NCBI GenBank assembly: GCA_028821235.1
Contig: JAPPGV010000026.1
Coordinates: forward strand, 1-49,464
DNA length: 49,464 nt
Reading direction: 5' to 3'
From: a bacterium
GTDB taxonomy: Bacteria; Actinomycetota; Acidimicrobiia; Spongiisociales; Spongiisociaceae
Shown: positions 24,497 through 40,429 of the stretch, in pieces
How the letters are laid out: each line of letters starts with the position of its first letter
Position numbering within the stretch: the first letter of the stretch is position 1
Program-made: the position numbers and the translations under genes
The notes under the pieces: generated by a model
What the model was told of the DNA's origin: nothing
Databases searched by the model: none
What the model saw: only the letters and a program-made list of their open reading frames with translations

Positions 24497-24685
24497 TCAT
24501 CCACAGCACGCATCCATGGATGGCCCGGACCACGGATGGCCCGACCCTGCCACCTCCCCGATGACCTCGCCCTTGCGTTCCTTGCAGTCCGGACACACCC
24601 AGACTGCCGGCACCCTGGCGCCTTCCACCACCAGCGTGCGGTACTCGTGACCGCAGTCAGGGCAGGCGATCAGCAGAACCGGCAC
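24497..24685 (-). CDS. small zinc-ribbon protein, 62 residues
   Basis: Two CPDC knuckles (CPDCGHEYRT near residue 8 and CPDCKERKG near residue 31) form a likely zinc ribbon; the C-terminus ends DACCG. The start is GTG at 24685, preceded by GGAGGGA, and lies inside the last 29 bases of the upstream lyase gene, so it is the last member of that operon. Its function is unknown. Because it accompanies the putative coenzyme M genes it could deliver sulfur or metal, or bind the enzymes, but the sequence alone does not show this. Confidence 0.65.
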   Translation of the reverse strand: MPVLLIACPDCGHEYRTLVVEGARVPAVWVCPDCKERKGEVIGEVAGSGHPWSGPSMDACCG

Positions 24686-26213
24686 GGCTCCCTCCCCCTC
24701 CGCCTGTTCGGCTCTGCGCCAGGGCAGTGGCCTCGGTGATCAGGGAATCCCTGGCCGCGTCCTGGGCCGCTCGCGATGCTGTCCCCCATTCCCGGGAATG
24801 CCGTACCCGCAGTGACACCGACGCGCAGTGCTCGAGAACCCGGCGGGGCGCCGATCCGCCGATCGAGTCCCGGGAGGCGACCATGGCCGCCACGTCGTCC
24901 ATTTCCGGCTCCGACTTCGCCGGAACGGACCCGGTCGGCTCAAACCCGGCAGCGCGGGCCGCTTCGGCCAGACGGGCGGCCGAGACCTGCTCCTCCCCCG
25001 CCCCGGCAGCTTGCGCCACCGCCCGGGCAACGACTCGATAGGCGCTCCTGTAGTCGAGACCCCCTTCCAGGACCAGACGGTCTGCCAGATCGGTCGCCGT
25101 AGTGAAGTTCGTTGCCGCGTCCTCGGCCAGCCTCGCGACGTTCACCTCCAGGGAGCCGACCACCTCGGTTGCCAGGCGCACCAGCCGGGTGGCGAGTTCC
25201 ACCGCTCCCACCACCTCCCCGTACAGGTGGAGCCAGTTGTCGGTTCTGGCGGATGGAGTCCGCTGGGTGACCATCAGTCCGGTGACCCTGCCGATGAGGG
25301 TTCCGCAGCCGCCGCGGATCACCGCGAGAGCGTAGGGGTTGCGCTTCTGCGGCAAGAGCACTGACGCCCGCGACGACGATCCCCCCAAGGTCACGTAGCC
25401 GAACTGCGGGCTGGCAAAGATCTCGAGGTCCTCGGCCAGGCGATCGACCGCCAGTGCCGCCTGCATGGCTGCCACACCACAGTCGATCATCGGATCACCC
25501 GACCACATGCCGTCGCGGATGTGGGCGGTGGGCTGGTCGAAGCCCTGCCGCGCCGCCATGCGGGAGCGGTCCACCGGAATCGGCGTTCCGCCGACACCGC
25601 CGGACCCTGCGGGTGATTGGTTGATCAGCCGGTAGCAATGGCGGACCCGGTCGAGGTTCCGGATGCCCTGCTCGGCGAAGCCGGCCAGATAGTGGCCGAA
25701 TGTCGACGGCTGGGCGGGCTGCAGATAGGTGGTGTCGTTCCACAGCGCATCCGCCAACTCTTCGGACCGCCTGACCAGCACCTCGGTGCACGCGGCAACC
25801 GCTTCATGGAGCGCCAGGAGCCGGTCCCGGAGCGCCAGGCGGATGGCGATGCGTCCGGCTTCCCGCCTGGTACGGCCGGTCGGCAGCCATCCGGCCCGGG
25901 ATCCCAGGCGGCGCTCGAGCTCCCGTTCCCGGCTGTTGTAGGCGTCCCCGTAGACCGGATCGTAAGGGAAGGAAGCAGGATCGGTGTCCAGGAAGTCGAG
26001 CAGCTCCCGGCAGAGCGCCGCCGCCGCCGCCTTTGGCGCCACGCCGGCCGCGACCAGCTCGATAACGTGGCTGAGGTCGGCCAGGCACAAGCCCTCGTGA
26101 AGGATGGCGGCGTCCGCCACCTCGAGGCGGTAACCGGCCGCCACCAGCTCCGGGGATGGGCCTGATCCGAGCGGCCCATCCGCTCCCAGATAGCCCTCGG
26201 GCGGCTGGATCAT
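24657..26213 (-). CDS. aspartase/fumarase-superfamily lyase (ArgH-like), probable coenzyme M synthesis
   Basis: 518 residues from the ATG that overlaps the PLP-enzyme stop; an upstream extension of the frame only mirrors that enzyme. Superfamily regions are visible: DTTYLQPAQPSTFGHYL (the TxxQxAQP type), and the flexible loop ending in LLPQKRNP. In this loop the usual GSSxMP is ASVLLP, so Ser284 stays but the second Ser, normally the catalytic one, is Val285. In the bacterial CoM operon of Xanthobacter two such lyases (XcbC1, XcbD1) perform phosphate elimination and a decarboxylation-type step. The present gene best matches the ArgH-annotated one (XcbD1) by context. Housekeeping argininosuccinate lyase is unlikely given the lost residue and neighbours. 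Confidence 0.68.
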   Translation of the reverse strand: MIQPPEGYLGADGPLGSGPSPELVAAGYRLEVADAAILHEGLCLADLSHVIELVAAGVAPKAAAAALCRELLDFLDTDPASFPYDPVYGDAYNSRERELERRLGSRAGWLPTGRTRREAGRIAIRLALRDRLLALHEAVAACTEVLVRRSEELADALWNDTTYLQPAQPSTFGHYLAGFAEQGIRNLDRVRHCYRLINQSPAGSGGVGGTPIPVDRSRMAARQGFDQPTAHIRDGMWSGDPMIDCGVAAMQAALAVDRLAEDLEIFASPQFGYVTLGGSSSRASVLLPQKRNPYALAVIRGGCGTLIGRVTGLMVTQRTPSARTDNWLHLYGEVVGAVELATRLVRLATEVVGSLEVNVARLAEDAATNFTTATDLADRLVLEGGLDYRSAYRVVARAVAQAAGAGEEQVSAARLAEAARAAGFEPTGSVPAKSEPEMDDVAAMVASRDSIGGSAPRRVLEHCASVSLRVRHSREWGTASRAAQDAARDSLITEATALAQSRTGGGGGSRAGSADRLP

Positions 26214-27157
26214 GCCGCCGAACTCCCGTGGAAGAGGTTCAGGGTTCCGCCGGTGACCAGGAACAGCACCGGCCCCCGGACCTCGCCGGCCTGCCGGATG
26301 AGGTCGGCCAGCGCGCAGGAGCCGTACTCGGGATCGAGGAAGACGCCTTCCGTGCTGGCCATCAGCCTGGCGGCGGCGTCGACCTCCAGAGGGTCGGGGT
26401 CCAAGTGGTCGGTGACCTGCCACCGGACCGGGTACCGGTGAGCCACTTCCAGGATGTCGAGGGAGGCCTCGGATATGTCCTCGATACGGCGCTGGCACTC
26501 CTCGATGGGGCGATGGACCGCCGCGCCCACCACCCGCGGGCCGCCGGCCCGCCGCCGGTAGCCGGCCACCAGGCCGGCCATCGTGCCGCACGATCCCGCC
26601 GCCAGCCACATTGCCTCGAACCGGACTCCTGCCCCTTGCGCCTGGTCATCGATCTCGTCGACCGCGGCGACGTACCCCAGTGCCCCGACCGGACCGGCGC
26701 CGCCCCGGCCCACCACGTATGGACGGCGACCCTCTTCCCGCAGGCACGCTTCCACCCGGTCGAGGAGCGGATCGACGGAGGCTCGCACCGGGCTACCGGT
26801 GAAGCGGATCCGTAGGTTGTCCAAGCGGTCGAGCAGGTCGACCCCGCTGGTGCCTGCCGGTGGCCGGTCTCCGAACAGCACCAGTTCGCAATCGAGGCCT
26901 CTGGCGGCCGTGGCGGCGGCCGCGGCCAGGACCCAGTTGGAACGCGGTCCTCCGCCGGTCACGAACACGTCGGCGCCGGCCTCGCGGCAGGCGCCCATAT
27001 GGAACTCGATCGCCCGGGCCTTGTTGCCACCCAGGCCGACACCGGTCAGGTCGTCCCGCTTCAGCCAGATCGACGAGCCGAGTTCCTCGGAGAGCCGGGG
27101 CGCGAACGTGAGCGGCGTCGGCAGGTTCGCCAGGGCTATCCGAGCGGGGGCGGTCAA
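26210..27157 (-). CDS. xcbE1: D-cysteine desulfhydrase-like PLP enzyme, probable XcbE1-type
   Basis: Fold-type II PLP enzyme, 315 residues. It has the N-terminal TPLTFAPRLSEELGSSIWLKRDD, the PLP-lysine motif GLGGNKARA (Lys46), and a phosphate-binding AAGSCGTMAGLV. Related enzymes are D-cysteine desulfhydrase and ACC deaminase. In the known bacterial coenzyme M pathway a member of this family performs the thiolation step, so I propose that role. The start is TTG overlapping the stop of the upstream lyase (TTGA), and its stop overlaps the next lyase start. This close packing with two fumarase-superfamily genes is the main argument for CoM synthesis over amino acid degradation. Confidence 0.72.
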   Translation of the reverse strand: MTAPARIALANLPTPLTFAPRLSEELGSSIWLKRDDLTGVGLGGNKARAIEFHMGACREAGADVFVTGGGPRSNWVLAAAAATAARGLDCELVLFGDRPPAGTSGVDLLDRLDNLRIRFTGSPVRASVDPLLDRVEACLREEGRRPYVVGRGGAGPVGALGYVAAVDEIDDQAQGAGVRFEAMWLAAGSCGTMAGLVAGYRRRAGGPRVVGAAVHRPIEECQRRIEDISEASLDILEVAHRYPVRWQVTDHLDPDPLEVDAAARLMASTEGVFLDPEYGSCALADLIRQAGEVRGPVLFLVTGGTLNLFHGSSAA

Positions 27158-28500
27158 CCGGCCGCCCTTATCACCCGGTCCACGAACCGGGGCCCCGCAC
27201 CCATTACCCGGCCGAGGTCGGCCTGCTCCTCGATGTCCGACCGGCTCAGGTGGGCGGGAATCCGAGGATCGCGCATGAGCGCTTCGGTAAACGGGAGCCC
27301 CTCCTCGACGCCCCGCATGGCCGCCTCGTACACGATGTCGTGGGCGGTGTGCTTACCGACCCGGTCGGCCAGCAACCGCATGACCGGCTCGGCGAACACG
27401 GATCCCCCGCGGGCATCGATGTTGGCCCGCATCCGCTCTGCGTCGGCCTCGAGGCCCTCCACCAGCATCACCGCGTAGCGGGTGGCCGAGAGGGTCAGGG
27501 CTGCCGCCTCGGGGAGGGCGATCCACTCGGCCTTCCACGCTCGACCGTCCCGCTCGTGGAGCTGGATCATCGACTCGGTCATGACGGAGGCACCCGCGCG
27601 CACCAGCCTGGCCAGCGTGTCCAGGTGCTCCGACAACTCCGGGTTGCGCTTCTGGGGCATGGTGATGCTCCCCACGGTGCCCTCGATGAAGGGCTCCCGG
27701 ACCTCTCCTATCTCCAACCGCTGCAGCTCCATGATCTCGTTGCCGATCTTGGCGATGGTGGTAGCGACCATCGCCAGCAGGTGCACGAACTCGGCGGGTC
27801 CGTCCCTACTGGTGATCCAGGGGATCGAGGGAACGCCCAGATCCATCCGGCGGGCGAAGGCGTCCAGCAGATCGAGCGCCTGCTCGCCCCAGAACTCCAG
27901 CGTGCCGAGAGCGCCGCCCAACTGGACCACCTCCCATCGACTCCGCCCGTCCGCGAGCCGCTGCCGGTGCCTGCCCAGCTCCGCCGCCCAGACGGCCGTC
28001 TTGAAACCGAACGGGATGGGCAGGCCCGGCTGGGCGTGCGTGCGACCCATCATCGGGGTGGTGCGATGATCACGGGCCAGCACCAAGGCAGCGGCCTCCA
28101 GGCGGGCCAGGTCCCTCTCCAGCAGATCGCCGACGGATCGCATCACCGTGGCGGTCCAGGTGTCGGTCAGGTCCTGGACCGTTGCGCCGTAGTAGACCCA
28201 TTCCCGGGCGGGCTCCGGGAGGGTGGCTCGCAACACCCGGATCAGGCCCAGGGTGGAGTGGCCGGTCGCCCGGGTCTCCGTGGCGATGCGGTCCAGGTCG
28301 ATCTCGGCCCCGGTGGCATGGTCCCTGATGTGCCGGGCGGCCCCTGCCGGCACCAGGCCGACCTCGGCCTGGGCCTCGGCGAGGGTGGCGAGAATGTCAA
28401 GCCAGGCCCGGAAGCGGGACTCCTCCCCCAGGATGGACCGGGCCTCTTCGGTACTCCACAGGTGCCCGTAGACGACGGAGTCGCCCAGGTGGATGCTCAT
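27154..28500 (-). CDS. aspartase/fumarase-superfamily lyase (PurB/CMLE-like), probable coenzyme M synthesis
   Basis: 448 residues. The three superfamily regions are present: WVYYGATVQDLTDTW, MMGRTHAQPGLPIPFGFK, and the signature GSITMPQKRNPELSEHL. The normal GSSxMP is GSITMP: Ser278 stays but the position of the catalytic second serine is Ile279. The protein resembles adenylosuccinate lyase or carboxymuconate cycloisomerase, yet sits in an operon with a PLP enzyme and a second lyase. The Xanthobacter XcbC1 protein, also of this superfamily, eliminates phosphate from phosphosulfolactate to give sulfoacrylate; this gene is the better candidate for that step. ATG 28500 overlaps the preceding stop codon. 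Confidence 0.68.
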   Translation of the reverse strand: MSIHLGDSVVYGHLWSTEEARSILGEESRFRAWLDILATLAEAQAEVGLVPAGAARHIRDHATGAEIDLDRIATETRATGHSTLGLIRVLRATLPEPAREWVYYGATVQDLTDTWTATVMRSVGDLLERDLARLEAAALVLARDHRTTPMMGRTHAQPGLPIPFGFKTAVWAAELGRHRQRLADGRSRWEVVQLGGALGTLEFWGEQALDLLDAFARRMDLGVPSIPWITSRDGPAEFVHLLAMVATTIAKIGNEIMELQRLEIGEVREPFIEGTVGSITMPQKRNPELSEHLDTLARLVRAGASVMTESMIQLHERDGRAWKAEWIALPEAAALTLSATRYAVMLVEGLEADAERMRANIDARGGSVFAEPVMRLLADRVGKHTAHDIVYEAAMRGVEEGLPFTEALMRDPRIPAHLSRSDIEEQADLGRVMGAGPRFVDRVIRAAG

Positions 28501-29435
28501 CCGGCGGGAACGAGCGCGTCAAGGCCCACCAGCAACCGCAATGCCTGCCTCACCTCGTCGAGGTTGGCACCCCACGGCACCACCGCCCGGTTGCCGTCGA
28601 ACTCCACGCCCCGCTCCAGCATGCAGCACTTGATGAGCCAGCGACCATCCGGGCGGGCTTCCTCGACCCGCCGCTTGGGGCAGATGTCGACCTGGGTCGG
28701 TTCGCTGCCGTAGAAGTGACGGTGGAATTGCATCGAGCGCTCGCAGCCGATCATCACCCACTCATCGGGCGCCGGCGGCCGGGTGTCGAGATATGCCATG
28801 TCGGCTGCCAACTCGGTGCCGGCCCCGCGGCACGGGAGAAGGTAGGAGTCCGACGGGGCCGTAGCAGCCAGATCGTCGAAGGTGACCGCGTCAAGGACCA
28901 GGTCCACGGGTGGCATGTCCTCATCGAACTCCACCACCTGCCGGGCCTGGTCCAGCAACTTGGGCGGCAGGGGCGGGGTCACCTCGGTTACGAACACGCG
29001 CACCGGATCGGGCTCCCAGATGAAGTTGATGTGCTCGAACCGGCCCTTCACCACGAAGGCGGAGACGCCGGGGCGTCCATGGCTGATCGCCGCCCCGGCC
29101 AGGGCGGTGGCGTTCCCCACGTCAATCGTGGGATCCTCGATCAGCTGGGTGCGGTCGGGGCCCGACCAGACCTCGACATCCACCACCGGCACGAACAACT
29201 CGTCCGAAGCGGCCCGCGCCACCGCCGCCAGGCCCACCGCTTCGTCGTGGATGAGGGCGATGTAGTCGGTGCGCCGGTAGACCTCCCGCCCGCTGAGGTA
29301 CTCCCGCATGAAGTCGGGTTGCGGATCCTCGTCCACATGCTGGACCGACAATCCCCGGTAGGGATGGGCGCGGGCGTTGGCTGACGGTTGCTCGGCTGCC
29401 GCCGTGCTCGTGACGGTCCCGGATTCGGCGCGCAT
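28497..29435 (-). CDS. conserved-looking protein of unknown function, first gene of the CoM-type operon
   Basis: 312 residues; I do not recognise the family. There is no signal peptide, membrane helix or Rossmann GxGxxG. Notable stretches are EYLSGREVYRRTDYIALIHDEAVG, FVVKGRFEHINFIWEPDPVRV, QFHRHFYGSEPTQVDICPKR and RWLIKCCMLERGVEFDG, with three Cys in the last 70 residues. A TAGAAT -10 box lies six bases before the ATG, so this is the first gene and probably leaderless. Four genes follow with overlapping starts and stops. It may supply a step not covered by the lyases and PLP enzyme, for example the final reduction, or it may act as a scaffold. Confidence 0.7.
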   Translation of the reverse strand: MRAESGTVTSTAAAEQPSANARAHPYRGLSVQHVDEDPQPDFMREYLSGREVYRRTDYIALIHDEAVGLAAVARAASDELFVPVVDVEVWSGPDRTQLIEDPTIDVGNATALAGAAISHGRPGVSAFVVKGRFEHINFIWEPDPVRVFVTEVTPPLPPKLLDQARQVVEFDEDMPPVDLVLDAVTFDDLAATAPSDSYLLPCRGAGTELAADMAYLDTRPPAPDEWVMIGCERSMQFHRHFYGSEPTQVDICPKRRVEEARPDGRWLIKCCMLERGVEFDGNRAVVPWGANLDEVRQALRLLVGLDALVPAG

Positions 29436-29490: not shown

Positions 29491-29658
29491 CTAGTGGTCT
29501 GTCTGTGTAATGGCGGTGTGGTATGGCGAGGCAGCGGTGTTCCTCGCAAGGCCCGGTGACGAAGGCGTACCCGCAGCGGTACGTTGAGGAAGCGGAACGC
29601 AGCGACGGGGCGCCGATGGTCGCCAGAGCACCCGGTTGTTTCGCAGACAGACCACTAG
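29491..29658. repeat. 168-bp element with 15-bp perfect inverted ends
   Basis: CTAGTGGTCTGTCTG (29491-29505) and its exact reverse complement (29644-29658) flank about 140 bases of non-coding sequence. A shortened relative lies at 11168-11223. CTAG at both edges could be a target duplication, but it is palindromic, so this cannot be decided. The right arm overlaps the stop codon of the small membrane protein gene. It is likely a MITE-like remnant or a structured RNA; no transposase is nearby. Confidence 0.6.
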
Positions 29659-30097: not shown

Positions 30098-31204
30098 CTA
30101 GCCCAGTTCGCTGCGAACGATCTCCGCTCCCGAGACCATCGCGTGGAGCTTGTCCTGGGCGATGTAGCGCTGCAGGAGGATGAGCCCGCAGTCCGTGGTC
30201 ACGCCCAACTGGTTGGCCGGCACGTACTCGAGCAGCCGCCGGATCCGGCCGGCTACCTGCTCGGCCGTCTCGGTGATCGTCGACTTGACGTCGATCACAC
30301 CCGCCCAGAACTGGATGTTCTCGGGAACCGGATTGTCCCGGATCACCTCGAGCCCGGACAGGTCGTCCGAGCGCCGCCCGCAGTTCTCGAGGTTGAGGAC
30401 ATCGATGTTCGCCTCGTAGGACTTCGGGACCACCGAAGCGGTGGCAGCCGGCTCATCACCCTGGCGGATGGTCAGATCGAAGATCTCTCCGGCGCCGGCC
30501 GTGTCGTCCGGGTAGTAGGCCGGGGTGCCGCCCCAGTTGCCCCAGCAGATGTGGACGATGATCTTGGCGTTCTGGACGCCCTCCACGGCCCGGTCGAAGG
30601 CCTCGATGGCCCACGGTTCGTAGAAATACGGCCAGGTGAACTCGTCGAGCTGGATGAAGTCGATCCCCATGGCGTCGACCTCGAGGATGTCCTCGTTGAC
30701 CGCCGCGGCGATGTCCATGGCCCGCTCCGCGGGATCCTCGTAATGGAGGTCGTTGGTGGCCTGGGCAAGGACCTGGATACCGGTGTACTGGACCTTGGTG
30801 GCCTTGTTGGTGGCCTGCTTCAGGGCCCGGGCCTGCTCGACCATGATGGCGCCCCGCCGCTTGACCTCCTGGGTGAGGGTGCCGGCATGGAGGCGGCTGT
30901 AGATCGGGAACCCGAGGAAGCCACCCTTCAGGTCGTATCCGAGCCGCTTGTAGTAGTAGTAGAGGGCCTGATCGGCGTAGTTGTCGCCGTGGAGCCGCCC
31001 ATCGGTGATGATGTCGAGACCGGCGTTCTCCTGGTCCCTGGCCAGGGCGCCCACCGCATCCTCCAGCGCCTCCCGGATGTAGGCATCCGGCGGCTCCTGG
31101 TCCCCGGTCCAGTCCCGCACGCAGTTGGCGTCCCACCACCTCGGATTGGGGTAGTTCCCGACCATCGAGGTCGGGATCATGACCTCTTGACCCTTGATCT
31201 GCAT
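30098..31204 (-). CDS. xecA: epoxyalkane:coenzyme M transferase (MetE-fold)
   Basis: Opens an epoxide with the thiolate of coenzyme M to give a hydroxyalkyl-CoM. The 368-residue protein is a single cobalamin-independent methionine synthase-type barrel, close in length to Xanthobacter EaCoMT (about 377). Zinc ligands are visible: His and Cys in HICWGNWGG, Glu in NLENCGR and Cys in TTDCGL. It lacks the N-terminal half of a true MetE. Other clues are GNYPNPRWW and the neighbouring xecD and xecE. The ATG has GGAGGGA upstream. A MetE-like methyltransferase for some other thiol is the main alternative, but the full pathway context argues for EaCoMT. Confidence 0.83.
   Translation of the reverse strand: MQIKGQEVMIPTSMVGNYPNPRWWDANCVRDWTGDQEPPDAYIREALEDAVGALARDQENAGLDIITDGRLHGDNYADQALYYYYKRLGYDLKGGFLGFPIYSRLHAGTLTQEVKRRGAIMVEQARALKQATNKATKVQYTGIQVLAQATNDLHYEDPAERAMDIAAAVNEDILEVDAMGIDFIQLDEFTWPYFYEPWAIEAFDRAVEGVQNAKIIVHICWGNWGGTPAYYPDDTAGAGEIFDLTIRQGDEPAATASVVPKSYEANIDVLNLENCGRRSDDLSGLEVIRDNPVPENIQFWAGVIDVKSTITETAEQVAGRIRRLLEYVPANQLGVTTDCGLILLQRYIAQDKLHAMVSGAEIVRSELG

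Positions 31205-37872: not shown

Positions 37873-40429
<2,557 letters not shown>

Follow-up and report, generated by a model that had tools for sequence, protein, structure and literature searches.

XcbA (DUF7714), a protein kept beside XcbD in bacterial coenzyme M-type operons, and a second genomic setting of these operons

The window analyzed here is a stretch of 49,464 nucleotides (contig JAPPGV010000026.1 of assembly GCA_028821235.1, from a bacterium of the class Acidimicrobiia) that carries a coenzyme M (CoM)-type operon. XcbB, XcbC, XcbD, and XcbE are all encoded in the window along with XcbA, and the features are as follows.

24657–26213, minus strand: xcbC, argininosuccinate-lyase type, with an ATG at 26213; its best NCBIfam match is XcbC (398 bits, below the cut-off of 575)
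26210–27157, minus strand: xcbE, PLP-dependent enzyme of the D-cysteine desulfhydrase type, TTG start; its best NCBIfam match is XcbE (223 bits, below the cut-off of 450)
27154–28500, minus strand: xcbD, fumarase/ASL superfamily (NF052536, 665 bits, cut-off 600)
28497–29435, minus strand: xcbA (DUF7714), 312 aa, ATG start, assigned by profile matches
29492–29657, no strand assigned: MITE-like insertion between the EaCoMT gene and xcbA, about 165 nt long and bounded by perfect 12-nt terminal inverted repeats
30098–31204, minus strand: epoxyalkane:CoM transferase (EaCoMT, XecA type), Pfam Meth_synt_2, named by homology
39566–40429, plus strand: xcbB, phosphosulfolactate synthase (ComA) (TIGR03849, 296 bits, cut-off 280)

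The only Pfam family matched by the open reading frame at 28497–29435 is DUF7714 (PF24830; 3.4e-80, 269.6 bits against a cut-off of 25), and the NCBIfam model "XcbA family protein" (NF052538) matches it with 367.6 bits (cut-off 150, 4.3e-110), so this is a real gene and chance is excluded. A misread frame was likewise ruled out by the Pfam and NCBIfam matches together with the relatives described below, and the identity of the protein as XcbA is nearly certain. A first-pass annotation of this DNA had called the protein unrecognized, which is correct for its function, given in neither Pfam nor NCBIfam, but not for its family, which has a name in both. The same annotation regarded the gene as first in its operon and strongly coupled. 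The coupling is evident in three successive 4-nt overlaps at the junctions xcbA/xcbD, xcbD/xcbE, and xcbE/xcbC, and xcbA does lead this overlapping xcbA-D-E-C run. However, two genes of the same strand are located upstream, that for EaCoMT at a distance of 662 nt and one for an SDR, so xcbA need not open the transcript. The window EaCoMT and the annotated 2-hydroxypropyl-CoM lyase of Xanthobacter autotrophicus Py2 match the same open reading frames in relatives. The MITE-like insertion is missing from the relatives L021 and L024, and the contigs of L018 and L019 start inside it. Elsewhere in the genome of the window (G000 contig C146, 4561–5739; L131), a monooxygenase hydroxylase alpha-like protein that shares 28% identity with the alkene monooxygenase alpha subunit annotated in Nocardioides JS614 is, by sequence, a candidate source of epoxide.

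A search of plasmid proteins identified Xaut_5051 on pXAUT01 of Py2 as 41% identical to the window XcbA, and this gene directly precedes those for a phosphosulfolactate synthase, two fumarate lyases, and a PLP enzyme. Judged by sequence, the window gene is the orthologue of Xaut_5051, the first xcb gene of Py2, which we take to be xcbA1, a name consistent with the position of the gene. The plasmid has four DUF7714 matches, two of which are adjacent halves; the other copies on pXAUT01 (L098) lie at 85933–86783 and 293908–294756, and one copy is split into two adjacent frames. Members of the family are also present beside xcbB in Mycolicibacterium rhodesiae JS60 and M. vinylchloridicum. For vinyl-chloride mycobacteria, a 308-aa hypothetical gene beside xcbB1 was called xcbF1 in 2021 (PMC8727900), and the DUF7714 gene found at this place in two loci (L052 and L053) is 54% identical to the window XcbA. 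Position and length indicate that the actinobacterial DUF7714 gene is probably this "xcbF1", which was put forward as a new gene in a paper whose section 15 makes no link to the Py2 XcbA. Given Xaut_5051, the mycobacterial relatives, and the earlier xcbF1 naming, the window gene is a known orphan and the proposal that it is new does not hold. A literature search for DUF7714 found no paper.

The profile matches and the operon confirm that XcbA belongs to a CoM-type pathway and that its function falls outside the four enzyme types listed in the first-pass annotation (sulfite addition, two lyase steps, and PLP thiolation). Homologues widespread in genomes without xcb or xec genes, the result named beforehand as a refutation, were not seen among 296 bacterial genomes. 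When these 296 genomes, drawn from the phylum, were searched for PF24830 and XcbD, PF24830 was present in nine, and XcbD was present at a minimum of 51% identity in the same nine (next-best match 41%; Fisher 2e-17 with kinship ignored). Co-occurrence, which had been suggested as a check, holds with the xcb genes but not with the xec/EaCoMT genes. A scan of a species-genome collection, performed with conserved peptides of the family and for this reason under-sampling its distant members, confirmed 87 relatives, 80 of which were kept; some of these contigs seem to belong to genomes that are also in the phylum sample. XcbD is present in 79 of the 80 loci, and xcbA stands immediately before xcbD in 77; among the 60 loci having xcbA and xcbB both on the plus strand, xcbB is immediately ahead of xcbA in 57. 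NF052538 matches every one of 75 aligned relatives. Additionally, XcbD scores above the cut-off in 8 of 121 genomes of a methanotroph order, and XcbA is found in all eight. At one locus (L040, 150–1031), no xcbD was found next to xcbA; the XcbA encoded there is of the alkene-side type, and the contig also carries AllG, OsmC, and nitrile-hydratase genes. In the control genome of Methanosarcina acetivorans, a divergent DUF7714 protein scores above the Pfam cut-off and below the XcbA cut-off; since this organism is described as using another CoM route (PMC12068725), DUF7714 is not strictly tied to XcbD. We consider a role for XcbA in CoM-type biosynthesis highly probable.

Two places in the pathway had been offered for XcbA, as a replacement for a known step or as a new enzyme for the last reduction. 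Because XcbB, XcbC, XcbD, and XcbE are all in the window, XcbA does not replace a known step. The CoM pathway is summarized in the literature as five steps ending in a reduction, and XcbA could be a reductase if these five steps map one to one on XcbA through XcbE. It would then catalyze the final, CoM-releasing reduction with electrons from thiols or an Fe–S donor in place of NAD(P)H, a role that would suit the five invariant cysteines discussed below and the description of XcbA in PMC11507031 as the functional counterpart of sulfoacetaldehyde dehydrogenase. A late reductase would, however, be expected to go with XcbE, and the genomes that have XcbA without XcbE speak against the last step. 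In 11 genomes, XcbE is missing from the XcbA locus; a search of these at 1e-15 gave no XcbE match in ten, where XcbA and XcbD nevertheless persist, and one weak XcbE-like match in the eleventh (G300), while XcbE was found in three of three controls. Also weighing against a final reduction are the position of xcbA directly ahead of xcbD in nearly all loci and the absence from the XcbA sequence of the dinucleotide-binding motif GxGxx[GAS], a motif test that agrees with the first-pass observation of no Rossmann motif. Catalysis of the last reduction by XcbA is thus unlikely. The xcbA-D operons whose genomes have no detected XcbE are those of L064, L067, L074, L089–L091, and L094–L097. Their end product may be something other than CoM; alternatively, a non-homologous enzyme may stand in for XcbE, or the gene may fall in a gap of a draft genome.

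The explanation that we favor, with a probability of roughly 0.55, is that XcbA is a soluble, conserved protein that serves as an enzyme, or as a subunit of one, in bacterial CoM biosynthesis and works with XcbD. Its retention where XcbE was not found places it with XcbD in midpathway instead of at the last reduction, and the XcbD stage is indicated by the near-constant xcbA-xcbD pair, the one-to-one occurrence, and the persistence without XcbE taken together; adjacency of the two genes alone is no proof of a joint reaction. The more specific statement, that XcbA acts with XcbD and before XcbE, is an evenly balanced one. XcbB and XcbC would make sulfoacrylate, and XcbA together with XcbD would turn this compound into the XcbE substrate in the decarboxylation/thiolation stretch of the pathway, with the XcbA conversion using a cysteine-lined site.

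Structure prediction and fold search, also proposed as a check, yielded a confident model but no convincing match in the PDB. The AlphaFold2 model, made with 72 sequences, has a pLDDT of 92.6 (95.8 for the N-terminal part alone) and comprises a beta-rich N-terminal part (about residues 20–142) and an alpha/beta C-terminal part (143–311). When the PDB was searched by sequence with two profiles, no credible match for XcbA emerged, and comparison of the whole model and of the N-terminal part with the PDB by Foldseek and VIA returned weak or generic rows only. For the C-terminal half the best Z is 7.5, which is within the stated background of the tool; for the N-terminal part it is 3.6. The top Foldseek row is for PUA and SPOUT methyltransferases of the RsmE type (E 5e-4), yet TM is 0.13 and rmsd is 17.6, and these rows rank first without superposing on the XcbA model. 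C202, C231, C252, C270, and C271 are present in the window protein and unchanged in all 75 aligned relatives, which come from both sides of the XcbA tree; in the predicted secondary structure, each of these cysteines stands at the end of a beta-strand of the C-terminal half or after it. Y53, D105, G131, H135, K159, D217, R233, S234, P287, W288, and G289 are likewise present in the window protein and invariant in these relatives, and R50 and H238 each show one variation. On the predicted model, the combination of invariant cysteines with H135, H238, D105, K159, and D217 suggests a metal, an Fe–S cluster, or a reactive thiol, and we put the use of metal or thiol chemistry by XcbA at about even odds. 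The invariant or near-invariant polar residues R50, D105, H135, K159, D217, C231, R233, and S234 look catalytic, which makes it doubtful that XcbA is instead a noncatalytic accessory, such as a chaperone, a protein that delivers sulfite or cysteine, or a CoM-binding protein that keeps hold of XcbD. Such an accessory would nonetheless account for the near-constant pairing with XcbD and would be compatible with a DUF7714 protein in M. acetivorans, given its different described route (PMC12068725).

XcbA also draws attention to a second setting of the operon. The neighborhood of xcb in 35 loci of lower identity (L063–L097) is unlike that of the other loci, with clusters of conserved open reading frames that match the MSMEG_0565 glycosyltransferase, the MSMEG_0568 radical SAM protein, and the MSMEG_0567 acetyltransferase, together with sll0787 AIR-synthase-like and FdrA matches that are both under the cut-off. 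Further neighbors are carbamate kinase, AllG, AllH, OsmC, an FAD oxidoreductase, a weak DsrE-like protein, and, in part of the loci, a nitrile-hydratase alpha chain with the motif CTLCSC in 14 of 15 matches. Across the 35 loci, AIR synthase occurs in 29, AllG in 27, OsmC in 23, radical SAM and acetyltransferase in 19 each, carbamate kinase in 17, FdrA and glycosyltransferase in 16 each, nitrile hydratase in 12, and EaCoMT in one (L069). In the other 45 loci, each nitrogen-type marker occurs 0 to 2 times and EaCoMT 26 times. One or more nitrogen-type markers are found in 34 of the 35 loci (all except L069), with L078 and L093 having a single one. According to PMC11049912, the nit1C cyanide/nitrile cluster includes genes of the nitDEF type (radical SAM, acetyltransferase, and AIR synthase), and oxalurate breakdown is the described role of AllFGH together with carbamate kinase (PMC12625717). 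Of these 35 loci, 34 could be traced to a genome, and a search of these 34 genomes for EaCoMT found it at a minimum of 45% identity in two (those of L069 and L085); L069 lies on the alkene side of the XcbA tree.

In the tree (86 rows), a branch supported at 100/99 sets 34 nit1C-labeled rows apart, and all 34 carry nit1C-type, nitrile-hydratase, or AllFGH/carbamate-kinase markers; EaCoMT was found in 1 of 32 searched genomes of this clade (L085). Two more nit1C-labeled rows, L040 and L066, fall outside this group, and the label therefore requires three changes on the tree. A locus on a Methylocystis plasmid (L100) belongs to the nit1C-type clade, and its cluster also has a nitrilase. Because the other loci gave no match to this nitrilase, we do not claim the full nit1C set. 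The xcb operons in a nitrogen-marker setting and without a nearby EaCoMT are L063–L097 (except L069), L010–L015, L017, and L100. CoM-type operons are found in many actinobacteria, on the Methylocystis plasmid, and in draft genomes labeled Acidobacteria, Dormibacterota, and Bacillota. The known use of the cofactor, in alkene degradation, appears to be missing from many bacteria with XcbA-marked operons.

The nitrogen-gene setting and the almost constant absence of EaCoMT from these genomes lead us to propose, tentatively, that XcbA marks a second, undescribed bacterial use of CoM or of a sister sulfonate thiol in a nitrogen-scavenging cluster, which combines nit1C-type genes with carbamate kinase, subunits of oxamate carbamoyltransferase and, in some loci, the nitrile-hydratase alpha chain. 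As a pure inference, the thiol would trap cyanide or a nitrile in the form of a thiocyanate, the thiocyanate would be hydrated to an S-carbamoyl thiol, and the carbamoyl group would be passed to phosphate to give carbamoyl phosphate and, from it, ATP and ammonia. Under this proposal, XcbA would be a new cysteine-rich enzyme fold, as judged from the predicted model. Among the literature matches listed, none by its title linked CoM biosynthesis to nit1C, nitrile hydratase, or oxamate carbamoyltransferase. Operons in a setting without known alkene use point to a second bacterial role of the cofactor. The gene itself was already known as XcbA, and its interest lies in this second setting and in an assignment that can be tested, since the near-perfect pairing with XcbD allows a clear test for a family without a function in Pfam or NCBIfam.

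The window protein scores above the cut-offs of both PF24830 and NF052538, neither of which carries a function. The methanogen CoM synthase, ComF/MMP16, is also a CoM-biosynthesis protein with conserved cysteines that are implicated in catalysis (PMC12068725). It showed no sequence match to the window XcbA, for which a Pfam search at E values up to 10 returned DUF7714 only. The closest parallel in operon type is that of Py2, where XcbA1 is of the same family and xcbB, xcbC, xcbD, and xcbE are accompanied by a nearby EaCoMT gene. The two operons differ in gene order, which is A-B-C-D-E in Py2 and A-D-E-C with xcbB apart in the window, and the XcbA proteins of Py2 and the methanotrophs form their own branch of the tree.
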